Below, piece by piece: positions 47,337 through 63,221 of a DNA stretch of 64,000 nucleotides (positions are counted from its first letter, which is position 1; each line of letters starts with the position of its first letter). Below the pieces are notes generated by a model that searched no databases, was not told the DNA's origin, and saw only the letters and a program-made list of their open reading frames with translations. Position numbers and translations under genes: made by a program. Origin of the DNA: Serratia entomophila (lineage in GTDB: Bacteria > Pseudomonadota > Gammaproteobacteria > Enterobacterales > Enterobacteriaceae); NCBI RefSeq assembly GCF_021462285.1, contig NZ_CP082787.1, forward strand, positions 3,224,001 through 3,288,000, written 5' to 3'.

Positions 47337-47714
47337 TCACCCCAGCAGCACCGCGCCCCAGATAACGAGGGTCATCACCACCGCCACCAGCTGCGCCGCA
47401 CCGCCCAGATCTTTGGCGCGTTTGGATAACGGATGCAGCTCCAGCGAAATGCGATCGACCACGGTTTCAATCGCCGTATTAAGCAACTCAACCGCCAATA
47501 ACAGGAAGCTGCAGGCAATTAACAACAGCCGTTCCATTTTGGTAATATCGAGAAAGAATGTAACGATAAGTAAAATCAGGTTAATAACCAATAATTGACG
47601 AAAAGCATCCTCGGTGAGCGCGGCGTCAATAAAGCCGGCCCATGAGTTTTTTATGCTGTACGTTAACCGGCTTATTCCTTTTTTCTTTTCCACAGGCATG
47701 CGTTTTGCTCTCAT
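47337..47714 (-). CDS. Diacylglycerol kinase DgkA paralogue
   Basis: 125 residues, three membrane helices, DgkA family. The active-site pattern is kept: Glu of TEDAFRQ and the signature VELLNTAIETVVDRI with its Glu, Asn, Glu and Asp. Housekeeping dgkA usually lies near lexA/plsB, so this looks like a second copy. Known: E. coli DgkA can also phosphorylate ceramide. It lies on the same strand as, and 190 bp downstream of, the candidate ceramide synthase gene, which makes lipid phosphorylation in the sphingolipid pathway a reasonable inference. A start at 47699 is also possible. Confidence 0.85.
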   Translation of the reverse strand: MRAKRMPVEKKKGISRLTYSIKNSWAGFIDAALTEDAFRQLLVINLILLIVTFFLDITKMERLLLIACSFLLLAVELLNTAIETVVDRISLELHPLSKRAKDLGGAAQLVAVVMTLVIWGAVLLG

Positions 47715-47904
47715 AAACTCACGACAAACACCGAAAATAAATCACGCAGCGTGAGTTTTACTCAGGTTTATTTATTAACAACGTTAATCCATGCCCCTCA
47801 AGCGGCGTTTAATTCATCCGCGCCGCAGCAAAAAATCGCCGCGCCCGAAAACGCTGCGCTCTTATCCTCTCCAGGGCGTTAAAAGCCGATTTATTATCAA
47901 TCTG

Positions 47905-49029
47905 TTAAAGTCGTTTTTCATATAAACGATAACGCTTATAGGGCACCGCCCCGATGCGCTCCAAAATCGTCCGCATGCCGGTATTGGTTTCCAGGATCCA
48001 CGACATTTCCAGCGCATCGATATTGCGCTTGGCAAAGGGGTCGCGCAGCGCCTCAATAAGCAGCAGCGCGATAATCGGCCCGATGCGGCTGAATTGATAT
48101 TCCTGACGCACGCCCATCAGCGGCACGCGCGCGGTGCGTACGCCGCTGACTTTCAGCCGCCACAATAGCTTCGCCCAACCGAAGGGCAGTAAACGCCCCT
48201 GCAGATCGGCGATGGCCTCGTTAATGTTCGGCAGACCCACGATAAAGGCGCAGGGAGCGCCGTCCACCTCGGCGATATGGATCATATCGTCGGGCACCAG
48301 GAACTTAAGCTGATCCCCCATAGTGGCGAACTCGTGCTCGGTGAACGGGACAAACCCCCAGTTATGCTGCCAGCCGGAATTGAACACCTCCCGCAGCACC
48401 TGCATCTCCTGCCGAAAGCGCTTGCGGTCGAGGCGGCGAATAGTCACCTTTTTGCGCACCTGCTCCATCATCCGGGTTAACGAAGGCGAAAAATGCAGGT
48501 CGGTTCTTTTCATCCAATAGGCAAGCAGATCAATCCCTTCCGTATAGCCTTGCTGCGCTATCTGGGCCGCGTAGTAAGGTTTGGCGTGCGTCATCAGCGC
48601 CGCCGGCGGGGTGTCAAACCCTTCGACCAACAGGCCGCTTTCCTGATTGATATTGAGGCTGAATGGCCCGGTGATGTTACGCGCGCCCTTTGAGCTCAAC
48701 CAGGCTTCCGCCGCCGTGAATAACGCGCTGAAAACGGCGGGATCGTCAATGGCGTCGATCATGCCGAAGTGGCCGGTATCCTCACCATGCAGCTGCCGGT
48801 GCAGGGAGTCGATTTGTGCGGTGATGCGCCCGACCACTTCCCCATTCTTTTTCGCCACCCACGCCTGCCATTCAATATGCTCGGTGCCGGGGTTCTTGTT
48901 TGACAGATGCTCCGCGCGTTCTAAATACAGCGGGTCAATCCAGTTCGGATCATCGCGAAACAGTAACGAAGGGAAAGCAATAAATGCTTTAAGTTCGCGC
49001 TTATCCAGAACTTTCTCAATGTGAATCAT
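47905..49029 (-). CDS. yghO: YghO-family GNAT-like acyltransferase, candidate ceramide synthase
   Basis: 374 residues with a GNAT-like core (residues about 55-130: WQAWVAKKNGEVVGRITAQID) and a second GNAT-like half near the C terminus (PIIALLLIEALRDPFAKRNIDALEMSWILETN). It resembles E. coli YghO. Known: the bacterial ceramide synthase of Caulobacter is a GNAT-type protein, and its genome also has the FAAL-SDR-ACP-SPT set seen here across the divergent promoter. I infer N-acylation of a sphingoid base. The family name is firmer than the reaction. Confidence 0.65.
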   Translation of the reverse strand: MIHIEKVLDKRELKAFIAFPSLLFRDDPNWIDPLYLERAEHLSNKNPGTEHIEWQAWVAKKNGEVVGRITAQIDSLHRQLHGEDTGHFGMIDAIDDPAVFSALFTAAEAWLSSKGARNITGPFSLNINQESGLLVEGFDTPPAALMTHAKPYYAAQIAQQGYTEGIDLLAYWMKRTDLHFSPSLTRMMEQVRKKVTIRRLDRKRFRQEMQVLREVFNSGWQHNWGFVPFTEHEFATMGDQLKFLVPDDMIHIAEVDGAPCAFIVGLPNINEAIADLQGRLLPFGWAKLLWRLKVSGVRTARVPLMGVRQEYQFSRIGPIIALLLIEALRDPFAKRNIDALEMSWILETNTGMRTILERIGAVPYKRYRLYEKRL

Positions 49030-49285
49030 AAATAGCCTTAGATTTTAATAAAATAATTAAATAAGCGCACGACAACGCCGTTAGCATTTTTTATGCTGTT
49101 CTCGTTTATTGGATTGTGTATTGCCTGGATAATCGATAAGAAAAACCGATTATTGCCCTATATGAATCAGCGCGTTATTTACCCGGCGCCCCCTGTAATT
49201 CCCATGATTTATCAAAAAAAGAGAACCAAAAAGCGGCGCTCACAGGCTACGCTAATAGTGCTCTTTTATTATTTAGTGCTGTTTC

Positions 49286-49308
49286 GGCGAAAGAACTTCG
49301 CCTTTTTT
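49286..49308 (+). terminator. Intrinsic terminator in the leader of the lipid cluster
   Basis: GGCGAA (49286-49291) pairs with TTCGCC (49297-49302) over a 5-nt loop, followed directly by six T. It points rightward, 450 nt before the first gene of the operon, so something is transcribed and stopped here. Confidence 0.6.
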
Positions 49309-49659
49309 AGTGTAGCGACTTTAATCAGGAGAAGCACCGTCGATTTTACCACTTAATGCTATTTTTAAGTTCCGGGTTAAATGAGCCATTCACTTTTGGA
49401 TTTCTTGCTGCATACTGTTTATGAAGCGTTTAAGTTCCAAGATAGCCATGTACGAGGTCATAACCTATGAGCAGACAGTTATTTACTGCCAAACACATGC
49501 AGGCCAAAGAACGGCGAAGCCCGGATCTTGCAGTGTCGCTTCGTATACCCATCAGGTGCCGTTCGAGGCTGATAACAGGGGTGGCTTGCGCTCTCCCAGG
49601 TTAATAACTGGCGTGCCGACAAAGCACGGTAATATACGCTATTCGCGTAATAAAGATGG

Positions 49660-49680
49660 TTGAATAACAAACTTATTCAA
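49660..49680. promoter_or_regulatory. Inverted repeat upstream of the acyl-AMP ligase
   Basis: TTGAATAA-N5-TTATTCAA, perfect 8-bp arms, 76 bp before the start codon of the operon. A candidate operator. Confidence 0.4.
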
Positions 49681-49756
49681 AACCTATTATATCCATTATC
49701 TCGCCAAGAGCGGTTTATCTCTTTTGGTGATCTTTAATCTATGGCTATGTTTGTCT

Positions 49757-51496
49757 ATGTCTGAAACAAGTTCCGTTCATTCTATTCCTATGCGCTATGC
49801 GGACTTCCCCACTTTAGCGGATGCTTTGGATTACGCGGCGCAGGGCAATACGGGAATGAATTTTTACGACCGTCGCAATCAGCTGGTGGCGGTTCTCGAA
49901 TATCGCACGCTGCAACAAAAGGCGATCGCGGGCGCACGGCGTTTATTATCCCTGAAGCTCAAGAAAGGCGATCGCGTGGCGCTTATCGCCGAAACCAGCG
50001 CGGGATTTGTCGAAGCCTTTTTCGCTTGCCAGTATGCCGGCCTGGTGGCGGTGCCGCTGGCGATCCCGATGGGCGTTGGCCAGCGCGATTCCTACACCGC
50101 CAAGCTGAAAGGGCTGATCGCCAGCTGTAACCCCGCGGCAATTATCAGCGGCGAGGAGTGGACGCCGCTGATCGCCTCCGCCACGGAAAGCGCGTCGGCG
50201 ATACGCATTCTCAGCGACGCGGATTTTAACGCGTTGCCGCAGCCGGACATCGCGCTGCCGGCGCCGTCTCCCGACGATATCGCCTATCTCCAATACACCT
50301 CGGGCAGCACGCGTTTTCCACGCGGGGTCATCATTACCCAGCGCGCGGCCATGGCTAACCTGAGCGCGATCAGCCGCGACGGGATCAAGCTGCGCGCGGG
50401 CGACCGCTGCGTCTCCTGGCTGCCCTTCTATCACGATATGGGCCTGGTCGGTTTCCTGCTGACCCCGGTAGCCACCCAGCTGTCCGTCGACTACCTGCGC
50501 ACGCAAGATTTCGCCATGCGTCCGATGCAGTGGCTGAAACTGATCGCGAAAAATCGCGGCACCGTGTCCGTCGCCCCGCCGTTCGGCTACGACCTGTGCC
50601 TGCGCCGCAGCAACGCCAAAGAGCTGGCCGATCTGGATCTCTCCAGCTGGCGCGTGGCGGGCGTGGGCGCCGAGCCGATCCCGGCCGAGTTGCTGAGCCA
50701 GTTTGGCGAACACTTCAGCGGCATCAACTTCGACAGCAAGGCGTTCATGCCCTGCTATGGCCTGGCCGAAAACACCCTGGCGGTCAGCTTTTCCGACCCT
50801 TCCTCCGGCCCGCAAACCAACGCGGTCGACCGCGATATTTTGGAGTACCAGGGTAAAGCGACCGCGCCCGGCAAAAAGACCCGCGCCGTCTCGACCTTCG
50901 TCAACTGCGGCAGAGCGCTGCCCGGCCATCGCATCGAGATCCGCAGCGAAACCGGGCAACCGTTGCCGGAACGTCAGGTCGGCCATATCACCATTTCCGG
51001 CCCCAGCCTGATGAACGGCTATTTCAGCGATGATGAATCACAGCAGCAGATCCAGATGACCGGCTGGATGGACACCGGCGATCTGGGCTATCTGCTGGAC
51101 GGCTATTTGTACGTCACCGGCCGCAAAAAGGATTTGATCATCATTCGCGGCCGCAATATCTGGCCGCAGGATATTGAGTACGTCGCGGAATCCGAACCGG
51201 AAATCCGTTCCGGCGATGCTATCGCTTTCGTGGCCGAAGAACATGGCGAGGCGGCCAGGATCATTTTGCAAATCCAGTGCCGGGTCAGTTCGCAGGAGCG
51301 TCGGGAACAAATCGTGCATTCGCTGAGCGCGCGCATTCAAAGCGAATTCGGCATTGCGGTGGATATCGAGCTGCTGCCGCCGCACAGCATCCCCCGCACA
51401 TCGTCGGGCAAGCCTGCCCGCGCCGAAGCCAAAAAACGCTGGCTGAGGGCGGCGCTCTACCCGCAGCTGCCGCAGCTGGCCGGTTTCGCGCAATGA
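49757..51496 (+). CDS. Fatty acyl-AMP ligase (FAAL)
   Basis: 579-residue ANL-superfamily enzyme. It adenylates a fatty acid and should load it onto the carrier protein encoded downstream. Visible are the P-loop YTSGSTRFPRGVIIT (about residues 190-205), the YGLAENTL motif, TGDLGYLLDGYLYVTGR and the C-terminal Lys of RTSSGKPAR. The pattern around WLPFYHDMGLVG and RGRNIWPQDIE is that of FAALs rather than acyl-CoA ligases. Its stop overlaps the next start (ATGA). It corresponds by position and family to the acyl-ACP synthetase of the Caulobacter sphingolipid operon. ATG at 49757 has a weak ribosome site. Confidence 0.85.
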   Translation: MSETSSVHSIPMRYADFPTLADALDYAAQGNTGMNFYDRRNQLVAVLEYRTLQQKAIAGARRLLSLKLKKGDRVALIAETSAGFVEAFFACQYAGLVAVPLAIPMGVGQRDSYTAKLKGLIASCNPAAIISGEEWTPLIASATESASAIRILSDADFNALPQPDIALPAPSPDDIAYLQYTSGSTRFPRGVIITQRAAMANLSAISRDGIKLRAGDRCVSWLPFYHDMGLVGFLLTPVATQLSVDYLRTQDFAMRPMQWLKLIAKNRGTVSVAPPFGYDLCLRRSNAKELADLDLSSWRVAGVGAEPIPAELLSQFGEHFSGINFDSKAFMPCYGLAENTLAVSFSDPSSGPQTNAVDRDILEYQGKATAPGKKTRAVSTFVNCGRALPGHRIEIRSETGQPLPERQVGHITISGPSLMNGYFSDDESQQQIQMTGWMDTGDLGYLLDGYLYVTGRKKDLIIIRGRNIWPQDIEYVAESEPEIRSGDAIAFVAEEHGEAARIILQIQCRVSSQERREQIVHSLSARIQSEFGIAVDIELLPPHSIPRTSSGKPARAEAKKRWLRAALYPQLPQLAGFAQ

Positions 51497-52407
51497 CAGG
51501 CACCGTCGCAGTCACCGGCGCGACCGGCTTTATCGGCCGGCACATCGTGCGTGAACTGCTGGCGCAGGGGTTCAGCGTGCGCGCCTTGACGCGGCGCACG
51601 GGGAAAGCCGCCGCCGACAACCTGCTGTGGGTGCCCGGCGCATTGGAAGACCAGGCGTCGCTCGCCGAGCTGGTTCGCGGCGCGGACTGCATCGTTCACT
51701 GTGCGGGCCAGGTGCGCGGGCATGCGGAAACGGTTTTCACCCGCTGCAACGTGACCGGCAGCCTGAACCTGATGCAGGCGGCCAAACGGAGCGGCGATTG
51801 CAAACGTTTCCTGTTCATGTCTTCTCTGGCGGCTCGCCATCCGGAGCTGTCCTGGTACGCGAATTCAAAATGCGTCGCCGAGCAGCAATTAACCGCTGCG
51901 GCATCGGATATCGCGTTGGGTATTTTCCGCCCGACGGCGGTTTACGGGCCAGGCGACAAAGAGCTGAAACCGCTGTTCAACGGGCTGCTGCGCGGCGTGC
52001 TCCCCCGGCTGGGCGCGCCTGAAGCGAAACTGTCTTTTCTGCACGTGAGCGACCTGGCGAAAGCGGTCAGCCAATGGTTATTGGCGCAGCCCGCGCAGCC
52101 GAATATTTACGAACTGTGCGACGGCGCGGCCGAAGGCTATAGCTGGCGGCGCCTGAAAGAAATCGGCGCCGCCGTGCGCCAGGGGCCGGTACTCCTGCTG
52201 GGCATTCCACTGCCGCTGCTGAAATTCATGGCGGATATCGGCACGTCGTGGAACCGCATGGCAAAGCAAGAGCCGATGCTGACGCGCAGCAAAATACGCG
52301 AATTAACCCATAGCGACTGGTCCGCCAGCAATCAATCTTTGTCGCAGCAGATTGATTGGCTCCCACAGGTCAGTTTGGAGCGCGCACTGCGTGAAGGGCT
52401 GTTTTAA
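51493..52407 (+). CDS. Extended SDR, candidate ceramide-pathway reductase
   Basis: 304-residue NAD(P)-dependent epimerase/dehydratase-type protein. The Rossmann motif VTGATGFIGRHIV is at residues about 6-18, the catalytic YANSK follows SSLAARHPELSW, and the PTAVYGPGD segment is typical. Known: in Caulobacter an extended SDR (CerR) beside SPT reduces the 3-keto group in ceramide formation; the same role is inferred here. Translationally coupled to the FAAL by ATGA. Confidence 0.78.
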   Translation: MTGTVAVTGATGFIGRHIVRELLAQGFSVRALTRRTGKAAADNLLWVPGALEDQASLAELVRGADCIVHCAGQVRGHAETVFTRCNVTGSLNLMQAAKRSGDCKRFLFMSSLAARHPELSWYANSKCVAEQQLTAAASDIALGIFRPTAVYGPGDKELKPLFNGLLRGVLPRLGAPEAKLSFLHVSDLAKAVSQWLLAQPAQPNIYELCDGAAEGYSWRRLKEIGAAVRQGPVLLLGIPLPLLKFMADIGTSWNRMAKQEPMLTRSKIRELTHSDWSASNQSLSQQIDWLPQVSLERALREGLF

Positions 52408-52438
52408 TTATTCCAACCAGAGGTGTGTCAACGTTCTT

Positions 52439-52699
52439 ATGCTAAATCGCGATGCTGTAATGGAATATATCCTGACGTGTTTGCAAGGTATCGTCGAAGG
52501 CGGATTAGAAATAAAACCTGATAGCGATCTCGTCAACGATCTTGGCCTGGAATCCATCAGAGTATTGGATCTGCTGATGATGCTGGAAGATAAGTTAGAT
52601 ATCTCCATTCCTATCAATATATTGCTCGATGTCAGAACGCCGGAGCAACTGCTTGACGCGCTGCGCCCTTATCTGGAGAAAAGCCATGGGACTTTATGA
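52439..52699 (+). CDS. Acyl carrier protein of the lipid cluster
   Basis: 86-residue acidic carrier protein. The phosphopantetheine serine is Ser39 in the DLGLESIRVLDLL motif. It is not the housekeeping AcpP, which has DSLD at this site. It probably carries the acyl chain from the FAAL to the SPT-type enzyme. Its 3' end overlaps the next gene by 14 nt. The start at 52439 has AGAGGTG rather far upstream; ATG at 52460 is an alternative. Confidence 0.85.
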   Translation: MLNRDAVMEYILTCLQGIVEGGLEIKPDSDLVNDLGLESIRVLDLLMMLEDKLDISIPINILLDVRTPEQLLDALRPYLEKSHGTL

Positions 52700-53858
52700 T
52701 AAGTTTTCGCGGCTCGCCAACGACCGTGAACAATTTCAAACCTCCGGCCTGAACCCGTTCGGCACCTGCATCGACGAAGTATATTCCGCGACCCGGGGGC
52801 GCATCGGCGATCGAAAAATCATCCTCGCCGGCACCAATAACTATCTCGGCCTGACCTTCGACGCGCAGGCGATCGCCGCAGGCCAGGCCGCGTTGGCCGC
52901 ATTGGGCACCGGCACCACCGGCTCGCGCATGGCGAACGGCAGCTACGGATCGCACCTGACGCTGGAACGGGAGCTGGCGGAGTTCTTCGATCGGCCCGGC
53001 GCCATCGTCTTTTCCACCGGCTACACCGCCAATCTCGGCGTCATCAGCACGCTGGCGGGGCCGGGTTCCGTGGTACTGATCGATGCGGACAGCCACGCGA
53101 GCATCTACGACGCCTGCGCCCTCGGCGGCGCGGAGATTATTCGCTTCCGCCACAATGACGCCGGCGATTTGGAGCGCCGCATGCTGCGCCTGGGCGAGCG
53201 CGCCCGCGAGGCGATCATTATCGTGGAAGGCATCTACAGCATGCTGGGCGACGTCGCGCCGCTCGTTGAAATTGTCGAGATTAAACGGCGGCTGGGCGGT
53301 TATCTGCTGGTCGACGAGGCGCACTCGTTCGGCGTGATGGGCGCCCACGGCCGCGGCCTGGCCGAAGCGCTGGGCGTCGAGCAAGAGGTGGATATTGTAC
53401 TGGGCACCTTCAGCAAGAGCCTGGCATCGATCGGCGGTTTCGCCGTCGGCGGCGAGGGGATGGAGGTGCTGCGCTACAGCAGCCGCCCGTATATCTTTAC
53501 CGCTTCGCCGTCGCCTTCCAGCATCGCGTCGGTGCGTTCGGCTCTGCAGAAAATTGCGCATCATCCCGAACTGCGGGAAAAACTGTGGAGCAACGCGCAC
53601 CGCCTGTACCACGGGCTCGCCGAGCTGGGGTATACGCTGGGGCCACGCATCAGCCCGGTGGTGCCGGTGATGATCGGCTCGAAAGAGGAAGGCCTGCGCT
53701 TCTGGCGCGAGCTGATCGCCCACGGCGTGTATGTGAATCTGGTGTTGCCGCCGGCCGCGCCGGCGGGCGTCACCCTGTTGCGCTGCAGCGTCAACGCCGC
53801 GCACAGCGATGAAGAGATCGACGCGATCGTCCATGCCTTTGCGGCGCTGAAGAAGTAG
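52686..53858 (+). CDS. Serine palmitoyltransferase-type PLP enzyme (AOS family)
   Basis: 390-residue alpha-oxoamine synthase. These decarboxylatively condense an amino acid with an acyl thioester; with serine the product is 3-ketosphinganine. PLP Lys244 is in GTFSKSLASIGG, the ring-stacking His in DADSHASIYD, and the PLP Asp in VDEAHSFGVMG. It is clearly of the AOS family; KBL, BioF and SPT are the choices. The adjacent ACP, FAAL and SDR, the same set as the Caulobacter sphingolipid operon, point to SPT. ATG at 52686 follows GGAGAAAAGCC. Confidence 0.82.
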   Translation: MGLYDKFSRLANDREQFQTSGLNPFGTCIDEVYSATRGRIGDRKIILAGTNNYLGLTFDAQAIAAGQAALAALGTGTTGSRMANGSYGSHLTLERELAEFFDRPGAIVFSTGYTANLGVISTLAGPGSVVLIDADSHASIYDACALGGAEIIRFRHNDAGDLERRMLRLGERAREAIIIVEGIYSMLGDVAPLVEIVEIKRRLGGYLLVDEAHSFGVMGAHGRGLAEALGVEQEVDIVLGTFSKSLASIGGFAVGGEGMEVLRYSSRPYIFTASPSPSSIASVRSALQKIAHHPELREKLWSNAHRLYHGLAELGYTLGPRISPVVPVMIGSKEEGLRFWRELIAHGVYVNLVLPPAAPAGVTLLRCSVNAAHSDEEIDAIVHAFAALKK

Positions 53859-53916
53859 GCCGCCCGCCCCTCGCGCGCGGCGGCGGAAACGCCACCGCGC
53901 CGAACGGGGTCAAACC

Positions 53917-54648
53917 TCAGTGAACGGCCGCCGATTCTTCATCGGCCCCGTAGCGATAACCCTGCGCCGCCATAAATTCCGCAATGGCCTTTTCCGCCGC
54001 CGCAAGCACCTCCCCGATCGGCTGATTGGCATCGAGATCCACGATGTCGGCGCCTTCGAAAGTCAATAACGGCGTGACGGCGATTTTTTTCTCCAGCGCC
54101 GCTTTGCGGTGATCGGGCTTGCGCGCGCAGGCCACGTCCAGACTGACATTCAGCCTGAGAACCAGATCCGGCTTGTGCCCCGCCATCCATTGAAACGCCG
54201 CCCGCTCCCGCGCCGCCAGCCAGCGGACGAAACGATTCCCTTCGACGTTGACGGGAAATACCGTGCCGTCGTACGCGCCGGGGATTTGCGCCTGGGGGAA
54301 ACGGTCGGTCAACACGATGAAACCCTGCCGACGAAACGCCAGCATGCGGCGAAAACGCAGCAGCCGGCGCCCCACAAAGGCGATGATCACCACCGACGGC
54401 AGCAGGCCAAGCCTGGATTGGGTCGTTTTGACTTTTTTGGTATTGCTCTCGATGGCTTTGCCCACCGAGCGCCCCAACAGCGGCAATTTCGCCGCCGCGC
54501 GCCCGACGTTGCCCGCCTGTTTGCCCAGATGCACCCGCACCGCCGGCCCGTATTGCTTCACGTACTCGATCAGATGTTCACACACGGTGGACTTGCCCGA
54601 TCCGTCGCTGCCGATAACCGCAATCAGCGGCGGCAATTTTGCACTCAT
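53917..54648 (-). CDS. yghT: P-loop kinase-like protein, YghT type
   Basis: 243 residues, thymidylate-kinase-like P-loop fold. Walker [10 protein letters not shown] is at residues 13-21, with LTDRFPQAQ near the middle and [18 protein letters not shown] later. The same motifs recur in the next two genes on the other strand, so the three are paralogues. In E. coli K-12 yghT is likewise opposite to yghS, yghR and yghQ. Substrate unknown; a phosphoryl transfer to a lipid or sugar head group is a guess. ATG at 54648 is favoured over the longer frame. Confidence 0.72.
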
Positions 54649-54953
54649 AATAAGACTCTCTTTCAATACACCGGAAACGGCGCGCCAGGCCAAAAAGCAC
54701 AAAAGATTAAGCGGGAATTGAAAACTTCTGCTCTTTGCCCGTGGCGATAAACACCGGGAATTAACATAAAAAGCTAAACCGGACCACGTACAGATAATTA
54801 GCACAAAATAACAAGAACGAACGTTATGAATATCAATTCAAATAACGAACCAAAATACAAACCTCATTATTTTATCGCAACAAAGCACAATAAATATCTT
54901 GAACCCAAGACGTATTGGAATACAATAGTTTTTTTCGCATTGGATCAATTATT
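54649..54953. promoter_or_regulatory. Divergent AT-rich promoter region between yghT and yghS types
   Basis: About 305 bp, very AT-rich between 54790 and 54950, with no gene. It should contain the promoters of both divergent units. No specific operator was recognised. Confidence 0.5.
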
Positions 54954-55679
54954 GTGAGTCAGCAGATAAGACCCTCGTCTGATCGCTCACCCGTGCGCGT
55001 AATAGCGATAACGGGCTGTGACGGCTCGGGAAAATCCACTTTGGCCGCCAGCCTGGTCAACGCGTTATCGGCGCAAGAGCCTGCGGAACTGCTTTATCTC
55101 GGCCAGTCTTCAGGGCGCATCGGCGAATGGATCGGTGCGCTGCCGATTATTGGCGCGCGCTTCGGGCGTTATTTGCTGGCGAAGTCGGAACGCGTGCATC
55201 AGCGCCCTTCCACGCCCCCGGATAACGCCACGGCGCTGGTGATTTTTTTACTCTCATATTGGCGGGTTTATAAATTTCGCCGCATGCTGGCGAAAAGCCG
55301 CCGGGGCGCATTGCTGATTACCGATCGTTATCCGCAGGCGGAAGTGGCGGGCTTTCGTTTCGATGGCCCGCAGCTGGCGAAAACGGTCGGCGGCAATCGC
55401 TGGATCCGCTGGCTGAGAAAGCGCGAACAACACCTGTACCAATGGATGGCGTCTTATCAGCCGTTATTATTAATTCGGCTGGATATTGACGAACAAACGG
55501 CCTATTCACGCAAACCCGATCACCCGCTGGATGCGTTGCGTGAAAAAATTGCCGTCATCCCGCACCTGACTTTTAACGGCGCCAACATACTGGATTTAGA
55601 CGGCCGCGAGCCGGCGAGTAAAATTTTCGATGAATCACTGCGTGCAGTGAAAATATCACTGACGGCACCCAACGCATAG
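54954..55679 (+). CDS. yghS: P-loop kinase-like protein, YghS type
   Basis: 241 residues starting at GTG 54954 (a TTG at 54915 is also in frame). Walker A GCDGSGKST at residues 21-29, LITDRYPQAEVAG and AYSRKPDHPLDALREKIAVI. Thymidylate-kinase-like fold. Paralogous to the genes on both sides and similar to E. coli YghS (about 237 residues). Function unknown. Confidence 0.7.
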   Translation: MSQQIRPSSDRSPVRVIAITGCDGSGKSTLAASLVNALSAQEPAELLYLGQSSGRIGEWIGALPIIGARFGRYLLAKSERVHQRPSTPPDNATALVIFLLSYWRVYKFRRMLAKSRRGALLITDRYPQAEVAGFRFDGPQLAKTVGGNRWIRWLRKREQHLYQWMASYQPLLLIRLDIDEQTAYSRKPDHPLDALREKIAVIPHLTFNGANILDLDGREPASKIFDESLRAVKISLTAPNA

Positions 55680-55709
55680 CCGCCAAATAACCTTTGCGTA
55701 CGGAAATAG

Positions 55710-56486
55710 ATGAAAAAAAATAAAGACTCTGCCGAACATACCTTCTGCATCACCGGGCTTATCGCCGTCGTGGGCAGCGACGGCACCGGCAAATCTACCC
55801 TGACCGCCGATCTGGTTAAAAATCTGCAGCGGCATCGCGCCACGGAGCGGCGTTATTTAGGGCTGATCTCCGGCGAAGACGGCGACAAAATCAAGCGGTT
55901 GCCGTTCATCGGCGTCTGGCTGGAACGGCGCCTGGCGGCCAAATCCGATAAGACGCAGCGCATGAGCAATAAACCGCCGGCGCTGTGGGCGGCGCTGATC
56001 ATGTACGGTTTTTCACTGTGGCGCGCCTCCAACCTGCGCAAAGTGCGGCGGCTGGCGCAGAGCGGCGTGCTGGTGATCAGCGATCGCTACCCGCAGGCGG
56101 AGATTTCGGGCTTTTACTACGACGGGCCCGGCATTGGCGTCGAACGCGCCAAAGGCTGGCTGCTGGGCCGCCTGGCGGCGCGCGAGCGCCGTTTGTACCA
56201 GCAAATGGCGCAATATCGCCCAGAACTGATCATTCGCCTGGATATCGACGCCGATACGGCCTTTTCACGCAAACCCGACCACAGTTACGAAGAGCTGGAA
56301 GACAAAATATCCGCCATGGTGCGCCTGCAATACAACGGCTCGCGAATTATCGAACTGGACGCCAGAGCCCCTTACGACGAAGTGCTGAGCAACGCGCTCA
56401 ACGCCATCGCCGCCGTGGCGATCCCCGCACAGCGAACCCGCGGCGCCCCGGCGAATACGACGGCGCCGTTGGAGAAAGAAGCTTAG
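55710..56486 (+). CDS. yghR: P-loop kinase-like protein, YghR type
   Basis: 258 residues with Walker A GSDGTGKST at residues 22-30, VISDRYPQAEISG and AFSRKPDHSYEELEDKISAM. Third member of the paralogous set; E. coli YghR is about 252 residues. It lies 30 bp after the YghS-type gene and 81 bp before the flippase gene, so it is probably in one operon with both. Confidence 0.72.
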   Translation: MKKNKDSAEHTFCITGLIAVVGSDGTGKSTLTADLVKNLQRHRATERRYLGLISGEDGDKIKRLPFIGVWLERRLAAKSDKTQRMSNKPPALWAALIMYGFSLWRASNLRKVRRLAQSGVLVISDRYPQAEISGFYYDGPGIGVERAKGWLLGRLAARERRLYQQMAQYRPELIIRLDIDADTAFSRKPDHSYEELEDKISAMVRLQYNGSRIIELDARAPYDEVLSNALNAIAAVAIPAQRTRGAPANTTAPLEKEA

Positions 56487-56567
56487 GTTTATTAAACAGA
56501 TACAGGGCAAGCGAATGACTGCGGAACGCGAGATGCAAAAAAATAACGATGCTGGCTGGTTTGCATC

Positions 56568-57905
56568 ATGAAACGGTGGTTTTCCGATGGCGCTTTTCGC
56601 TCCATATTACGTAATGCCGCCTATTTAGGCTCCGGCAGCGTGGCCAGCGCGCTGCTCGGCTTGCTGGCGCTGTCCTGCGCCGGTAAAGGCATGTCGCCCG
56701 AAATGTTCGGCGTGCTGGTGGTGATTCAGGCCTATACCAAAGCGGTCAGCGATTTCATCAAATTCCAGACCTGGCAATTCGTCGTGCAATTCGGCACCCC
56801 GGCTTTGGAGCACCAAAACATCTCGCGCTTTCGCGACGTCATCGCCTTCTCCTTCGGCCTGGATATCGCCAGCGGCGCCATCGCCGTGCTGGGCGGCATG
56901 CTGCTGCTGCCGTTGTTGTCGCATGCCCTGGGGTTGGACAACGAAAGCTTCTGGCTCGCCATCCTTTACTGCACGCTGATCCCGTCGATGACGTCATCCA
57001 CGCCGACCGGCGTGCTGCGCGCCTTTAACCGCTTCGATCTGATCGCCGTGCAGCAGGCGATCAAGCCCTTCCTGCAGGCGGTGGGCAGCGTCATCTCGTA
57101 TTACTTCGATCTGGGCTTCCCGGGGTTCATCGTCACCTGGTACGCCTCTAACCTCATCGGCGGCACGCTGTTTTGGTGGTTCACCGCACGCGAACTGCGC
57201 CGCCGGAGCATCCACGGCGCGCTGAGGCCGCGCCTGTTCAAAACCGCGCGCCGCATCGAGGGCGCATGGAACTTCGTCTGGACCACCAACTTTGCGCACA
57301 CCATTTGGGCCGCGCGCAACTCCTGCACCACCGTGCTGGTTGGCGTGGTGCTGGGGCCGGCGGCCGCCGGGCTGTTCAAGATCGCCATGACCTTCTTCGA
57401 CGCGACGGGCACCCCGGCCAAGCTGCTGGAAAAAAGCTTCTACCCGGAGATCATGCGCCTGGATCCGCGCACCGCCAAGCCGTGGCTGCTGGGCCTGCGC
57501 TCCGCGCTGCTGGCCGGCGGCATCGGCGTCGCCGTCGCGGTGTTGGTGCTGCTGGTCGGCAAACCGCTCATTGCCGCGGTGTTCGGCCAGCAATACCTGG
57601 AGGCCTATGACCTCATTCAGATCATGCTGGGGGCGATCGTCGTTTCCATGATGGGCTTCCCGCAGGAGTCCTTGCTGTTCATGGCGGGCAAGCAGCGCGC
57701 GTTCCTCATCGCACAGACGATTGCCTCGGCGTCCTACATTGCGCTGTTGATATCGATGTCGTACGCCTTCGGCGTGCAGGGTGCCGCCTTCGCTTATTTA
57801 TTGGGCCAATGTTTAGACGTGCTGTTATCCCTGATACCGACGATCGGCGCCTACCGCAATCGCTATATGTTGGGGCTGAATGTGCCCAAAGAGAGTAATC
57901 AATGA
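56568..57905 (+). CDS. yghQ: Polysaccharide/lipid-type flippase, YghQ family
   Basis: 445-residue integral membrane protein of the MOP superfamily (Wzx-like), about 12-14 helices. It appears full length, whereas E. coli K-12 YghQ is shorter. Wzx-type proteins move lipid-linked molecules across the inner membrane, so a role in flipping the product of the cluster is inferred. The stop overlaps the next start by ATGA. Confidence 0.75.
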   Translation: MKRWFSDGAFRSILRNAAYLGSGSVASALLGLLALSCAGKGMSPEMFGVLVVIQAYTKAVSDFIKFQTWQFVVQFGTPALEHQNISRFRDVIAFSFGLDIASGAIAVLGGMLLLPLLSHALGLDNESFWLAILYCTLIPSMTSSTPTGVLRAFNRFDLIAVQQAIKPFLQAVGSVISYYFDLGFPGFIVTWYASNLIGGTLFWWFTARELRRRSIHGALRPRLFKTARRIEGAWNFVWTTNFAHTIWAARNSCTTVLVGVVLGPAAAGLFKIAMTFFDATGTPAKLLEKSFYPEIMRLDPRTAKPWLLGLRSALLAGGIGVAVAVLVLLVGKPLIAAVFGQQYLEAYDLIQIMLGAIVVSMMGFPQESLLFMAGKQRAFLIAQTIASASYIALLISMSYAFGVQGAAFAYLLGQCLDVLLSLIPTIGAYRNRYMLGLNVPKESNQ

Positions 57906-58738
57906 CCGCTAGCAATAATTGGAAAAAGTTCTCCGCTGAAACCACCCGGGCGCTATTTGTCGCGGTGGAAGAGGACGATCTGGTTGAGGCGAACATCAGC
58001 CTGCCGCAACAGATTGATTTGCACTGCTCTCTGGAGCACATTCGGGACAACTATGCGCTGTGCCTGCAATTTTGGGAGGACGGCTTTTCCCGCCGCGAGC
58101 TGCTGCAGCTGGTGAACGCTTTCCTGCAGGATCCGCAATTGGCGGCGGCCACCCGCATGCGTTACAAATATATTCGCGCACGCTATAAGCATTTTCGCTT
58201 CGCCCAACAGCTTTACGGCGAACGGCACCGCGCCAACCGCCTGTTCCACACCACCACCGTGGTGCTCGGCCATTTTCAGGACGCGTTTCGCAACGGCAAC
58301 CGGAAGAACCTGAAGCTTTACGGCAACCTGCTGCGGGTGCTGCTCAGCAGGCCGGTTTGGTCCTGCGTGCGCTATGCGCTGCGCCATATTCATCTGGCGA
58401 GCGAGCGCGACTTCATCGCCTATCGCCAGGCGCAGATGCGCTTGCTCCAGACGTTAATCGCCAGCCCGGAACTCACCGGCAGGCAGTTTCACGACGTGCG
58501 CAAAATCGTCAGCCGGCAGGTCTCTTTTTACGACACGCTGAGATCGATCGATCCCGACAACCGCGAGGCGCGGCAGATCTCGCGTTTTCTGGCGGCGATT
58601 AACGGCCTGATGGGCGACCGGCACGACGTGATGGTGGCGGATAAGCTGGCCGGCGGCGATGTTTATGACCGGCCCGGGATGCTGGATATCGATATCCGCC
58701 AGCGCCTGGAGCTGCTGCTTGCGCGTTTCCCCCTATAG
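57902..58738 (+). CDS. Uncharacterised helical protein, possibly CHAD-like
   Basis: 278 residues, no signal peptide, predicted mostly helical and rich in Arg, His and Leu. I do not recognise a named family. The C-terminal part (FHDVRKIVSRQVSFYDTL, then FLAAINGLMGDRHDVMVADKL) recalls CHAD domains, which bind polyphosphate with conserved His and basic residues, but this is a remote similarity by eye. It is coupled to the flippase gene by ATGA and followed after 13 bp by the YtfJ-like gene. Confidence 0.6.
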   Translation: MTASNNWKKFSAETTRALFVAVEEDDLVEANISLPQQIDLHCSLEHIRDNYALCLQFWEDGFSRRELLQLVNAFLQDPQLAAATRMRYKYIRARYKHFRFAQQLYGERHRANRLFHTTTVVLGHFQDAFRNGNRKNLKLYGNLLRVLLSRPVWSCVRYALRHIHLASERDFIAYRQAQMRLLQTLIASPELTGRQFHDVRKIVSRQVSFYDTLRSIDPDNREARQISRFLAAINGLMGDRHDVMVADKLAGGDVYDRPGMLDIDIRQRLELLLARFPL

Positions 58739-58751
58739 CGGAGGAGGCTGA

Positions 58752-59348
58752 ATGAGCTTACGCCGATGGCTGATAATACCGCTGCTGCTGTCGCCGCTGC
58801 TGGCGTCAGCGCATAATTTCATGCCCGGCAAGCCGGTTGCGCCGGTCGCCATCGCCGATCGCGGCGAGCTGCTGCTGCTGCTGCACAATGGCGATTTCAG
58901 CTACCGGCCGTGGAACAGCGCAGAGCTGGCGGGCAAGGTGCGCGTGATCCAGTACATCGCCGGGCGCACCTCCGCCAAGAAGAAGAACTCGCTGCTGATC
59001 GCCGCCGTCAAGGAGGCCGCTCTGCCGAACGATCGCTTTCAGCCCACCACCATCGTCAACACCGACGATGCGATACCGGGATCCGGCTTTTTCGTGCGCG
59101 GCAAAATAGAGAAAAACAAGCGGCACTACCCCTGGGCGCAGTTCATCGTCGACAGCGACGGGCTGGGGCGCAGGGCCTGGCGACTGCCGGAGGAGAGCTC
59201 CAGCATCGTGGTGTTGGACCAGGCCGGGCGCGTGCAGTGGGCGAAGGACGGCGCACTCACCCCGCAGGAAGTTGACCAGGTGATCGCCCTGCTGCGCGCG
59301 CTGATCGACCGGGATAAGCCAGAATCGCACGCCGCCGGGAGCCGATGA
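58752..59348 (+). CDS. YtfJ-family periplasmic thioredoxin-fold protein
   Basis: 198 residues with a signal peptide ending at LASA (about residue 20). It closely matches E. coli YtfJ: VRVIQYIAGRTSAKKKN, TTIVNTDDAIPGSGFFVRG, YPWAQFIVDSDG and VVLDQAGRVQWAKDGAL. The family has a thioredoxin-like fold without a CxxC motif and unknown function. Here it is embedded in a lipid operon just before an LptF/LptG-like pair, 3 nt before lptF-like, so it may act as a periplasmic partner of that exporter. Confidence 0.85.
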   Translation: MSLRRWLIIPLLLSPLLASAHNFMPGKPVAPVAIADRGELLLLLHNGDFSYRPWNSAELAGKVRVIQYIAGRTSAKKKNSLLIAAVKEAALPNDRFQPTTIVNTDDAIPGSGFFVRGKIEKNKRHYPWAQFIVDSDGLGRRAWRLPEESSSIVVLDQAGRVQWAKDGALTPQEVDQVIALLRALIDRDKPESHAAGSR

Positions 59349-59351
59349 CGC

Positions 59352-60422
59352 ATGTATTTGATTGAACGCTACATCATGGTTGAGATCCGCCGCCTGGTGG
59401 TGACGATCGCCGGGTTTCTCCTCTTTATGTTCGCCAGCTACTCCGCCCAGCGCTACCTCACCGACGCCGCCAACGGCACGCTGGCGCTGCGGGTGGTCGC
59501 CGACGTGGTTTTCTATAAATCGCTGATTGCGCTGGAGATGATATTGCCCGTCGCGCTGTACGTCTCGGTGGCGGTCGCGCTGAGCCAGCTGTATAGCGAT
59601 GCGGAGATCACCGCCATGCAGGCCGCCGGCGCCAGCCCGCTGCGGCTGTACAAGGCGGTGCTGCTGCTCGCCGTTCCGCTGGCGATAGGCGTTACGCTGC
59701 TTTCCCTGTATGGCAGGCCCTGGGCGTACGCCAATATTTATCAGCTGCAGCAGCAGTCGCAGTCGGTGCTGGACGTGAGCCACCTGCAGGCCGACAAATT
59801 TAACCTGAGCGGCAACGGCCGCATGATCCTCGCCGGCCACATCGACAAAACGGCCAATCACCTGACGGACGCCCTGATTTATGTCCGCACCGCCAGCCAC
59901 ACCAATCTGTACCGCGCGCAGTCGGTTGAGGTGCTCGACGCCTCCGCCGCCAGCCCCGCCGTGCGGCTGAAGGCCGGCACCGCCTATGTGCTGGATCGCC
60001 AGGGCGCCGACGACAACGGGCAGAATTACGACAACTTTGACATCGCGCTGAGGCCGTTCACGCCCAGCGCCGAGTCCCGGCACAAATCGGCCTCGCCGGC
60101 GGCGCTTTCGCGCTCCGCCGATCCGGCCGACGCGGCGGAACTGCAGTGGCGCGAGAGCCGTGGGCTGACCACCGTGCTGATGGTGCTGCTGGCGATCCCC
60201 TTCAGCCGCACCAAACCGCGGCAGGGGCGCTATGCCGCGCTGCTGCCCCTCACGATTCTGTTTACCGTGATTTTCTATGGCGGCAACATTTGCCGCACGT
60301 TGGTGGCGAACGGCTCTCTGCCCGCGATCCCCGGCGTGTGGCTGGTGCCGATAGCGATGACGATCGGCCTCGCCCTGCTGCTCGCGCGCGATTTATCCCT
60401 GCTGCGGAAAACCTCCCGATGA
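59352..60422 (+). CDS. LptF-like permease (second copy)
   Basis: 356 residues of the YjgP/YjgQ (LptF/LptG) family: six membrane segments, in two groups of three, around a periplasmic domain. Family cues are MYLIERYIMVEIRR at the N terminus, LSQLYSDAEITAMQAAGASPLRLYKAV and AIPFSRTKPRQGRYAALLP. The essential lptFG pair normally lies next to pepA, so this is a divergent paralogue. No LptB-type ATPase gene is in the cluster. Stop overlaps lptG-like by ATGA. Confidence 0.85.
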   Translation: MYLIERYIMVEIRRLVVTIAGFLLFMFASYSAQRYLTDAANGTLALRVVADVVFYKSLIALEMILPVALYVSVAVALSQLYSDAEITAMQAAGASPLRLYKAVLLLAVPLAIGVTLLSLYGRPWAYANIYQLQQQSQSVLDVSHLQADKFNLSGNGRMILAGHIDKTANHLTDALIYVRTASHTNLYRAQSVEVLDASAASPAVRLKAGTAYVLDRQGADDNGQNYDNFDIALRPFTPSAESRHKSASPAALSRSADPADAAELQWRESRGLTTVLMVLLAIPFSRTKPRQGRYAALLPLTILFTVIFYGGNICRTLVANGSLPAIPGVWLVPIAMTIGLALLLARDLSLLRKTSR

Positions 60423-61498
60423 CTATTTTTAGCCGTTACCTGATGCGTAACCTGTTCATGGGCTTTGCCGCCGCGGCGGGGTTGCTCATCCCGCTGTTCA
60501 CCACCTTTACGCTGATCAACGAGCTGGAGGACGTGACCCCGGGCGGCTACCGCTGGCAGCAGGCGCTGCTGGTCACTCTGATGACCCTGCCGCGCAGCCT
60601 GGTCGATCTGGGGCCGTTTATCGCGCTGCTCGGCGGCATCGTCGGGCTGGGGCAGCTTGCCAAAAGCCTGGAGCTGACGGCGATCCGCGCCGCCGGCATG
60701 TCGATATTTCGCATCGCGCTGGTGATGCTCGCCGCCGGGCTGCTGATGAACCTCTCGCTCGGCGCCATCGACGAATGGGCCGCTTCGCCGCTGCAGCAAC
60801 GCGCGCTGCAGATGAAGAACAACGCCCTGGCGCAATCGAACGATAACGACGTCGCCGTCAACCCGCTGTGGGCGCGGCGCGGCAACGAGTTTGTGACGGT
60901 AAAGACCGTTGATGAGCACGACCAACCCCACGACATCGAAATCTTTCGCTACCGGGCCGACCGCTCACTGGAGTCTTACCTCTACGCGGAAAGCGCCGGC
61001 ACCGGCGCCGACGGCAACTGGCTGCTGCACCACGTGATGCAGAAAAGCTGGCAGGGCAGAAAAGAGACGATTCAACGACGAGACAGCCTGCCCTGGCGCT
61101 CGCTGTTCGCCGTGCCGAGCCTGAAAGAGCTGACCCTGCCGGCGGGCAGCTTCTCGCTCCGGCAGCTGGAGCGCTATATCGCTTACCTGCAAGGCTCGGG
61201 GCAGCCCAGCACCGAATACCGCCTGGCGCTGTGGAAAAAGCTCGGGCAGCCGCTGCTGGTGCTGGCGATGATTTTATTGGCCGTTCCCTTTACCTTCACC
61301 GCCCCGCGCGCGCCCGGCCTGGGCAGCCGGTTGGCGCTTGGCGTCATCGTCGGGCTGCTGACCTACATCGCTTATCAGATCGTCCTCAACCTGGGGTTGC
61401 TGTTCTCCCTTAACGCGCCCTTCACCGCCCTCGCCCCGCCGCTGCTGATCCTGGCGCTGGCGTTGGCGCTGGTTTATCGGTTTGATCGGCGGGGTTAA
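60419..61498 (+). CDS. LptG-like permease (second copy)
   Basis: 359 residues, partner of the LptF-like protein. Cues: IFSRYLMRNLFMGFAAAAGL, LGQLAKSLELTAIRAAGMSIFRIAL (coupling-helix region that contacts LptB in LptG), ARRGNEFVTVKTVDE and YIAYLQGSGQPSTEYRLALWKKLGQPLLVLAMI split along residues about 255-290. The periplasmic beta-jellyroll region is present. The pair might use the housekeeping LptB2 ATPase. Last gene of the lipid operon. Confidence 0.85.
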   Translation: MTIFSRYLMRNLFMGFAAAAGLLIPLFTTFTLINELEDVTPGGYRWQQALLVTLMTLPRSLVDLGPFIALLGGIVGLGQLAKSLELTAIRAAGMSIFRIALVMLAAGLLMNLSLGAIDEWAASPLQQRALQMKNNALAQSNDNDVAVNPLWARRGNEFVTVKTVDEHDQPHDIEIFRYRADRSLESYLYAESAGTGADGNWLLHHVMQKSWQGRKETIQRRDSLPWRSLFAVPSLKELTLPAGSFSLRQLERYIAYLQGSGQPSTEYRLALWKKLGQPLLVLAMILLAVPFTFTAPRAPGLGSRLALGVIVGLLTYIAYQIVLNLGLLFSLNAPFTALAPPLLILALALALVYRFDRRG

Positions 61499-61579: not shown

Positions 61580-61718
61580 CCTTTGTTTGGTGTCCTATGC
61601 GCCGTTAGCTATCGCTGACTGCTGTTCGATAAAATGCCCCTCTGGGTTCCATCGTGCAAGGAGCGCGAGCGCCTGCCTGTACAGGCCAAGACGCAGCAAG
61701 CAAAGGAATAGACACACT

Positions 61719-63221
61719 ATGTTTTCCAATTTGAAACTGCTGTATATCGCCGATGATATTATTTCACCTGATGAATTCCCCCGTATAGTCAGCCCTTCCA
61801 GCGCATGTCACGGACTGTCATACATGCCGGACAGTGACATTCTGACACTTTTTTCTGGTTTTGGCGGTGGCGAACGGATCCGCCGTGAAGCCGGCGTTAC
61901 GCAAAACGGGATAAGTTCCAACCTGCGCGCAAAGGTGCAGAGCGACCTGATGAGAGGCGTTGTCGTAGCGGTTGAAACCCGGCCCGGCGTGTTGGCGACG
62001 ATGGGGCCATTTTACGCCGACATCGACGGTTATCTGATACCGCACGGGCGGCAAGAGCCTAACTATCCGCTGGACAAGATAGTGAGTCGGTACGAGGAGG
62101 CCGTAAAGTCTTATGGTGGCCGCCGGGCGCGCCCATCAGTCTTTCCCGCACAAGTCACTCGGGCAAAACCGGCTATAGGCCCAGATAACCCGGCGCAAGG
62201 TGGAAGAGTTTCACAGCAGGTCGTGTCTGGGCCCTTGACCAAAGCGCAACGCTGGCAGGAGCGAAAATACCTCATTGGCCGCGGGCAACGGAGTATCTAC
62301 CCGGACGCCCGAATCGCCTCGGAACGCCTGGCGGCAAACAATGTCGCCGTCGAGAAGGCAAAGCTGGCTGAGAATATCTACAAGACTACGAATCCGCTAA
62401 AGGATACCCCTGGCGTTCCTGAGGGCTGGAAAGATATCAGTAACGATAATGCTGCCCTGAGTAAAATTGGGCTAAACAGAAATATGCTCTTAGACAGAGA
62501 TGAATCACCGGATTTTTTGGCAAGGGTATATCAACCTGATAACAGTATTTTTGGTAAAGAGATGAACCCAACTGTCGTGTTCAGAGGATCAAGAGCGCCA
62601 GAATTCCCAGAGGGACTCGGCAGTGCCGCCAAAAAAGCCCTTAAGGGCGATTTATCAGGAATTAAAAATGTGAATGACTGGATAAATAATGGTGCTCAGG
62701 GGATGGGGGCGAACTCTGAGTATTATAAAAAGGCCATCAATATTGGCGAAAGCATATCAAAAAACCCCAGCATTGATATTTCTGGTCATTCATTAGGTGG
62801 CGGAATGGCCTCCGCCGCATCAATGACCAGTGGAAAACCCGCCTGGACGTTTAATGCAGCCGGACTCAACAGCGGAACAATTAGAAAATACGGGGGTAAG
62901 GCTCTTGGTTCAGCCAAGAACATACAGGCCTATCGAGTTGAAGGAGAACTGTTAACCACGTTACAGGAGGTTAATAACGAAAGTGATTATGAGCTTATAA
63001 AAAATGCCCTGCCCGATCCTTTGCAAAAACCCTGGGGCGTAGCATTGCCTTTCACCTTGAAAGAGTGGTCATCACTTGCGGTTCCTGGTGCCGTTGGCAT
63101 ACCGCACACTCTTGCCGGAGGGACAGGAACCTTGCTCGATAAACACGGTATAGACCAGACAATAAAGTTGATTGAAAACCAGAAAGACGATGATATCGCC
63201 ACTATCAGGGGGAGAATATGA
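61719..63221 (+). CDS. Probable phospholipase effector (type VI Tle-like)
   Basis: 500 residues. The C-terminal half has the lipase elbow SGHSLGGG with nucleophile Ser358, after VVFRGSRAPEFPEG and before AWTFNAAGLNSGT, as in class-3-like lipases and Tle phospholipase effectors. The N-terminal 160 residues are a separate domain that I do not recognise. No signal peptide. It is followed with ATGA overlap by an ankyrin lipoprotein, the typical Tle-Tli arrangement. From about 62400 the DNA is clearly more AT-rich than the start of the gene. ATG at 61719 follows AAGGAAT at long spacing. No VgrG, Hcp or PAAR gene is in the window. Confidence 0.72.
   Translation: MFSNLKLLYIADDIISPDEFPRIVSPSSACHGLSYMPDSDILTLFSGFGGGERIRREAGVTQNGISSNLRAKVQSDLMRGVVVAVETRPGVLATMGPFYADIDGYLIPHGRQEPNYPLDKIVSRYEEAVKSYGGRRARPSVFPAQVTRAKPAIGPDNPAQGGRVSQQVVSGPLTKAQRWQERKYLIGRGQRSIYPDARIASERLAANNVAVEKAKLAENIYKTTNPLKDTPGVPEGWKDISNDNAALSKIGLNRNMLLDRDESPDFLARVYQPDNSIFGKEMNPTVVFRGSRAPEFPEGLGSAAKKALKGDLSGIKNVNDWINNGAQGMGANSEYYKKAINIGESISKNPSIDISGHSLGGGMASAASMTSGKPAWTFNAAGLNSGTIRKYGGKALGSAKNIQAYRVEGELLTTLQEVNNESDYELIKNALPDPLQKPWGVALPFTLKEWSSLAVPGAVGIPHTLAGGTGTLLDKHGIDQTIKLIENQKDDDIATIRGRI

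Follow-up and report, generated by a model that had tools for sequence, protein, structure and literature searches.

What would a ceramide-type gene set do in an enterobacterium, and how far does the genetic unit to which it belongs extend? The locus that raises these questions lies in a stretch of 64,000 nucleotides of Serratia entomophila (positions 3,224,001 to 3,288,000 of contig NZ_CP082787.1; hereafter the window), in which a first-pass annotation had recognised a complete ceramide gene set at positions 47905-53858. The five genes are indeed located there, but these coordinates are too narrow: the core forms part of a conserved block of 14 genes that occupies approximately 47337-61498. 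The block is probably a mobile cassette that makes, phosphorylates and exports a sphingolipid whose head group is not of the phosphoglycerate type known from Caulobacter.

The core is composed of a GNAT-type gene on the minus strand and, divergently arranged on the plus strand, genes for a fatty acyl-AMP ligase (FAAL), a short-chain dehydrogenase/reductase (SDR), an acyl carrier protein (ACP) and a serine palmitoyltransferase (SPT). The FAAL, or acyl-ACP synthetase of the AasR type, is encoded at 49757-51496, 49757 being its most likely start; it scored 874 bits with NCBIfam model NF006624 (cut-off 600) and its nearest solved relative is 3pbk, a Fatty Acyl-Adenylate Ligase (E 4.2e-290). The extended SDR (51493-52407) matched Pfam Epimerase with 98 bits (cut-off 20.9); this family match and a position equal to that of the BL21 gene suggest that it may be of the CerR/epi type. 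The dedicated ACP of the AcpR type (52439-52699) matched Pfam PP-binding with 44.6 bits (cut-off 20.8), and inspection of the sequences by eye revealed the ACP serine (DLGLES) and the SDR motifs TGATGFIG and YANSK. The SPT gene, at 52686-53858, encodes 390 residues. Thus, all five enzyme classes named beforehand were found, and for four of them, all but the GNAT-type protein, the family matches were far above chance. The plus-strand genes had been described as one overlapping operon. FAAL and SDR genes overlap by 4 bases and ACP and SPT genes by 14, but 31 bases separate the SDR from the ACP gene, so that the operon is nearly but not strictly overlapping.

The 374-residue product of the minus-strand gene (47905-49029) matched no Pfam or NCBIfam family, and the best hit in a search of PDB sequences was not a credible relative (E 0.39). 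Its predicted structure shows a tandem GNAT fold, in agreement with the earlier assignment of this protein to the GNAT class, and its GNAT nature rests on that model. The predicted GNAT fold together with its position beside the FAAL-SDR-ACP-SPT genes are the features of bacterial ceramide synthases (bCerS), and we therefore refer to it as a bCerS/YghO-type N-acyltransferase. A Sandarakinorhabdus relative, 41% identical, is also located in an spt neighbourhood. Between the two divergent transcription units lies a region of 727 bases (49030-49756) that presumably contains both promoters. Its G+C content of 41% is lower than that of the flanking genes, and the regions at the 14 other loci compared are similarly poor in G+C (31-43%). 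A consensus scan gave no promoter-like match inside it, and alignment of the 15 divergent regions yielded, as to a conserved regulatory motif, just one partly conserved stretch of 18 bases near 49345. Promoter and terminator scans gave numbers near those expected from shuffled sequence (9 versus 6.3, and 23 versus 18.3, respectively).

The pyridoxal phosphate (PLP) enzyme is clearly of the SPT type. It scored 612 bits with the NCBIfam SPT equivalog model NF047599 (cut-off 500), versus 327 bits with the bioF model and 293 bits with the model for 2-amino-3-ketobutyrate CoA ligase (KBL), both below the respective cut-offs. The ten top PDB sequences are all named serine palmitoyltransferase, followed by KBL 1fc4. 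The host genome encodes its own KBL, BioF and 5-aminolevulinate synthase (ALAS), to which the SPT is 31-34% identical. A branch with support 100/99 in a 37-row tree separated these three from the 34 SPT-type rows, though they are long-branched and, according to a warning of the program, may be joined falsely; the window SPT falls inside an enterobacterial clade of 16 rows (100/99). The five nearest loci retrieved are from Serratia, with SPTs 95-96% identical. The active-site residues reported as intact were borne out by the alignment for SPT: H137, D210, H213, K244 and R366 are identical in 37/37 rows. Since these include the host KBL, BioF and ALAS, the residues demonstrate an intact alpha-oxoamine synthase without being specific for SPT. 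Separately, we note that the host ALAS (1879501-1880523 of C1; 1459-2751 of locus L005; TIGR01821 511 bits, cut-off 339) is unusual for an enterobacterium. Enterobacteria normally make 5-aminolevulinate by the C5 route.

The nine further genes of the block are distributed over both sides of the core. On the left, 3' of the ceramide synthase gene, a second DgkA-type lipid kinase (DgkA2) is encoded at 47337-47699 on the minus strand, its start being set from relatives. On the right, the gene for a YghT-type P-loop kinase-like protein (53917-54648, minus strand; start placed by homologue length) is followed by genes that are all on the plus strand. These encode a YghS-type (54915-55679, start uncertain; assigned by a weak dTMP kinase model match, a motif alignment and genome matches) and a YghR-type P-loop kinase-like protein (55710-56486), a MOP-type flippase of the YghQ type (56568-57905), a 278-residue all-helical CHAD-like protein (57902-58738), a YtfJ-family protein with, by eye, a hydrophobic N-terminus (58752-59348), and a second LptF (LptF2, 59352-60422) and LptG (LptG2, 60419-61498). 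The flippase matched Pfam Polysacc_synt_3 and Polysacc_synt above cut-off and the NCBIfam MOP model weakly, below cut-off. The YtfJ-family protein scored 228 bits with TIGR01626 (cut-off 151.1), LptF2 276 bits with TIGR04407 (cut-off 230) and LptG2 296 bits with TIGR04408 (cut-off 240). There are four lptF/lptG copies in the genome, one pair elsewhere and the second pair adjoining the core. We also considered the YtfJ-type protein as a redox partner of the SDR; this idea was dropped because its sequence contains no cysteine.

That these genes belong together is supported by their co-inheritance. SPT was detected in 17/30 genomes of the genus, 38/392 of the family (37 of them above the curated cut-off, the remaining one being cut short) and 3/148 of the order. 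Within the family, YghR-type kinases (E 1e-30) were present in 38/392 genomes, with three per genome, and the CHAD-like protein (E 1e-20) in 38/392. SPT, the three kinases and the CHAD-like protein occur in the same 38 genomes, as established by reading the three lists side by side rather than by script, and the other 354 carry neither the kinases nor the CHAD-like protein at the limits used. The SPT-positive genomes span 17 of 154 genera; the 38/38 agreement does not represent 38 independent events, however, because the 392 genomes are related. In 36/38 genomes a YghR-type copy is located on the spt contig within 7.5 kb, and in the remaining two (G509 and G526) it is on another contig.

A similar picture was obtained from the neighbourhoods of the best 80 of 214 SPT relatives, for which flanks of at most 10 kb were considered. 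The 36 Enterobacterales loci among them (L051-L083, L092, L094 and L103) include short contigs and a stray second SPT copy (L103). Near spt in these 36 loci we found the GNAT gene in 34, the kinases, the flippase, the CHAD-like and the YtfJ genes each in 33, LptF2 in 32, LptG2 in 31 and DgkA2 in 24; ten loci with the GNAT gene have no DgkA2 adjoining it. The stray copy is from Serratia sp. M24T3 (L103 9700-11161; G285 C1:3112127-3113293), where only an ACP adjoins the second SPT and the rest of the cassette is missing.

Plasmids also carry the block as a whole. All 14 genes follow each other in the same order in a Klebsiella michiganensis plasmid that is conjugative (NZ_CP106839.1; SPT 93.8% identical) and in a Rahnella aquatilis plasmid typed as non-mobilizable (CP042359.1; SPT 86.9%). 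An SPT relative (E 1e-100) was present in 20/72,556 plasmid records, and at least two of the ten matching records listed are chromosome-sized E. coli records. In addition, pN/pS values of 0.08-0.29, obtained in two comparisons, indicate purifying selection on all 14 genes. A chance or decayed cluster is rejected by this selection together with the conservation.

Which head group the lipid would carry was approached by comparison with Caulobacter and Pseudomonas. The ceramide kinase of Caulobacter, CpgB, carries an LCB5 diacylglycerol (DAG) kinase domain (PMC10331486) and performs the first head-group step (PMC11324152), CpgD is a nucleotidyltransferase (PMC12275187), and LptC2/F2/G2 plus a flippase are proposed, transport being a proposal there as well, to export the phosphosphingolipid (PMC11324152). 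The CC_1152-CC_1168 region of Caulobacter crescentus (PMC11324152) resembles the window in having the ceramide core, a second LptF/LptG and a candidate flippase. It differs in that relatives of its head-group genes were not found here, Pseudomonas versions being used as queries. These queries are three genes of Pseudomonas mandelii (L085) rather than Caulobacter sequences: a DAGK_cat gene and a MobA-like gene, which flank LptG2/LptF2 and which we read, by analogy, as putative relatives of CpgB and CpgD, and a gene for a 331-residue protein. Of 9 Pseudomonas loci, 9, 9 and 8, respectively, have relatives of the three queries close to spt, as have 19, 20 and 20 of the 20 loci from acetic acid bacteria. 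Within the same flanks such relatives were detected in 0/36 enterobacterial loci, nor were they detected in the window or in E. coli. The MobA-like and 331-residue queries had no match in the whole host genome, a search that is weak as it was run without a positive control, and the sole DAGK_cat gene of the host did not match the Pseudomonas DAGK_cat query at E 1e-5. Because relatives of the three queries were found neither near spt nor in the genome, a Caulobacter-type (phosphoglycerate) head group appears unlikely here. The suggestion in the first-pass annotation that the head group could be unusual thereby gains support, as other conserved genes adjoin the core.

The Pseudomonas spt loci (L084-L091 and L109) share with the window the core, LptF2/LptG2 and YghR/S/T-like kinases (9/9). 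They differ from it in having DAGK_cat and MobA-like genes in 9/9; an ABC transporter like that of L085 is also near spt in 9/9, and MOP flippase, CHAD-like, YtfJ-type and DgkA2 genes are present in 0/9. Most of them also encode a sulfatase-fold protein, which in L085 (14723-16507; PF00884, 186 bits) adjoins the kinases and may be a periplasmic head-group transferase. The three kinase queries match each other, and the Pseudomonas kinases were therefore not sorted into R, S and T types. A locus assigned to a Pseudomonas sp. metagenome-assembled genome (L086) carries, besides a Pseudomonas-type kinase, YghS- and YghR-like genes (315-1824) that are 81% and 72% identical to those of the window and much closer to them than those of other Pseudomonas loci; these close copies reflect either a recent transfer or a binning error.

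In E. coli records yghS and yghT are named dTMP kinases. This name is not supported, because the three window proteins scored 21.7 (YghT type), 24.5 and 30.4 bits with TIGR00041, below its cut-off of 83.25. The Walker A motif and a DR pair are kept in all 24 YghR/S/T-type proteins compared, including the YghT type, and a search of PDB sequences with the YghR-type kinase gave 0 solved relatives at E up to 1.

DgkA2 is the other candidate for phosphorylation of the lipid. It matched Pfam DAGK_prokar above cut-off (107.5 bits), and the NCBIfam scan gave 0 families. It is not the sole DgkA of the host, as was also considered: another dgkA gene is located elsewhere in the genome, and its product is 42% identical. 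A DgkA2-like copy is present in 17/17 SPT-positive genomes of the genus, the other 16 copies being 75-89% identical, and in 0/13 SPT-negative ones, of which 12 have only a distant DgkA copy and one has none. We compared the residues of 27 copies (the window, 24 loci and two plasmids). E28, E69, N72, E76, K94 and D95 are kept in 27/27, and S98 is replaced by G in 27/27. For E. coli DgkA (PMC4703834), the role of base is proposed for E69 and that of triggering it for E34, and S98 contacts the 2-position of the lipid. From the substitutions, a changed acceptor of DgkA2 is a fair inference. E. coli DgkA phosphorylates ceramide in vitro; no paper on this activity was among the open-access matches listed.

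The ceramide gene set itself turned out not to be new for an enterobacterium. PMC9386255 describes a cluster of these five genes in E. coli BL21(DE3) and names yghO as acyltransferase (aca). It reports that acyl-AcpR is the preferred substrate for synthesis of 3-oxo-sphinganine by the SPTs of three species, E. coli B among them, that AasR and AcpR of one species function together, and that the BL21 SPT with labelled serine yields a product migrating like 3-oxo-sphinganine. The BL21(DE3) cluster yghO-aasR-epi-acpR-spt (ECD_02850-02854) has the same five genes, order and divergent layout as the window. In E. coli REF1, whose annotated order equals that of BL21, the five core proteins are 68-80% identical to those of the window (SPT 79%). 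Both strains also possess yghT, yghS, yghR, the flippase, CHAD-like and YtfJ genes, lptF2 and lptG2, but unlike in the window no dgkA copy adjoins, and the right-hand genes have another order and orientation. Of 5426 complete genomes of E. coli, 4088 gave a match with an spt query from this species, and 4030 with a portion of the window's five-gene stretch (at best 61% of the stretch, at about 73% identity). The core is therefore of a known kind and not a discovery, being published for BL21(DE3) and widespread in E. coli.

What looks new is the wider cassette of about 14 genes. The sections of PMC9386255 considered discuss the five core genes alone, and we found, among the open-access matches listed, no paper linking yghQ, yghR, yghS or yghT to sphingolipids. 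In one section of PMC11324152, Azotobacter vinelandii and Pseudomonas luteola are given as gammaproteobacteria that possess the larger cluster; E. coli is not mentioned in that section. What remains of the locus in E. coli K-12 MG1655 is the yghO/yghQRST region. It retains yghQ, R, S and T and has no annotated gene from FAAL through the CHAD-like one, and the space between yghO and yghQ is occupied by an IS5 element that extends over the 5' end of yghO. K-12 yghO (L144, 11044-13341) is annotated as a putative transcriptional regulator; its Serratia relative is modelled as a tandem GNAT protein.

Taken as a whole, the gene content fits a line that would make, phosphorylate, flip and export a lipid. 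By analogy with relatives for which these steps have been shown, the FAAL would load a fatty acid onto the dedicated ACP, SPT would condense the acyl-ACP with serine to 3-oxo-sphinganine, and N-acylation by the GNAT protein and reduction by the SDR would give dihydroceramide. The ceramide would then be phosphorylated, by DgkA2 where this is present, and perhaps modified further by the YghR/S/T kinases. The MOP flippase would move the lipid across the inner membrane to its outer face, from where LptF2/LptG2 would carry it by an Lpt-type route to the outer membrane, presumably together with the shared LptB ATPase. The CHAD-like and YtfJ-type proteins would have accessory roles. In its boldest form, which we consider possible rather than probable, the hypothesis gives Enterobacterales a full mobile pathway to a phosphorylated sphingolipid whose head group differs from all those known in bacteria; YghR/S/T would be the head-group kinases, YghQ the flippase, and the second LptF/LptG would place the lipid in the outer membrane beside lipopolysaccharide (LPS), with a conjugative plasmid moving the whole trait and the duplicated DgkA acting as ceramide kinase in Serratia and relatives.

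Several observations weigh against a phosphorylated, exported sphingolipid. The SDR has no room for a signal peptide, whereas the Caulobacter reductase CerR is periplasmic, SPT and ceramide synthase being cytoplasmic there (PMC11087976). At one enterobacterial locus whose flanks are complete (L066), no flippase, CHAD-like or LptF2/G2 gene is present close by. In E. coli, Citrobacter, Pseudocitrobacter, Pluralibacter, Cedecea and Klebsiella indica, and in some Erwinia and Rahnella, DgkA2 does not adjoin the locus. Where it is present, it has lost E34 (L or I instead) in 27/27 copies, S73 is T in 27/27 and G97 is A in 4/27; its activity could therefore be weak, or its substrate another alcohol, and a weakened enzyme is possible. 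In the Pseudomonas loci YghR/S/T-like kinases occur together with a DAGK_cat gene; these kinases therefore do not simply substitute for a ceramide kinase of the CpgB type, a role that we had considered and that is not supported. Finally, no native enterobacterial sphingolipid is reported in the open-access literature among the matches listed.

Some of these points would also suit an arrangement in which only the core acts on sphingolipids, yielding plain dihydroceramide (or its keto form), while the adjoining genes have other tasks in the envelope and the locus is silent for the most part. The core genes alone have biochemical support, DgkA2 is absent beside 12/36 enterobacterial loci, and the yghR query matches 4579 E. 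coli genomes, 491 more than the spt query; together with K-12, which keeps yghQRST without spt, this surplus shows that the kinases can outlive the core. We nevertheless regard this as unlikely, in view of the exact co-occurrence of SPT, kinases and CHAD-like protein in the 392 genomes, the carriage of the whole block as a unit on plasmids and the purifying selection on every gene. It is quite improbable that the SPT-like enzyme accepts an amino acid other than serine, or an acyl chain of an unusual kind, leading to a different N-acyl amino-ketone lipid. SPT can use alanine and glycine as well, far less efficiently (PMC10196870), and substrate choice cannot be read from a sequence; the match to the SPT equivalog model and the product obtained with labelled serine and the E. 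coli BL21 SPT argue for serine. There is little likelihood that the right-hand genes and DgkA2 serve a polyprenol-linked glycan and have no more than their location in common with the genes of the sphingolipid core. MOP flippases and Lpt components typically handle O-antigen and LPS, and the LLNTAIE stretch of DgkA2 and its loss of E34 presumably recall Gram-positive undecaprenol kinases, but a glycosyltransferase gene is absent from the 14-gene block of the window, the genome-wide co-occurrence is with SPT, and the nine Pseudomonas loci, which have no MOP flippase, combine the core with LptF2/G2 and carry the ABC transporter near spt. Finally, that the PLP enzyme is a KBL or BioF of the same superfamily in a cluster unrelated to sphingolipids, which had been named beforehand as a refuting outcome, has practically no chance of being correct, as the curated models, the tree and the separate KBL and BioF of the host all place it apart.

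Past LptG2, at 61587-63991, the window contains a gene for a 544-residue protein with a lipase-like GHSLGGG motif and an overlapping gene for a 257-residue ankyrin-like protein with a lipoprotein-like start, which we take to be a possible effector and immunity pair.

The preferred reading, a mobile cassette for a phosphorylated and exported sphingolipid, extends beyond Serratia. Co-inheritance ties the orphan E. coli genes yghQ, yghR, yghS and yghT, the CHAD-like protein and the second LptF/LptG to sphingolipid synthesis. From this it is predicted that some three quarters of E. coli, K-12 excepted, may place a sphingolipid in the outer membrane. Since BL21(DE3) has 13 of the 14 genes, all but the dgkA copy, the idea can be tested with deletions in a widely used laboratory strain. 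Should it hold, many enterobacteria would have an overlooked class of lipid in their outer membrane, and the trait could be spread by plasmid.

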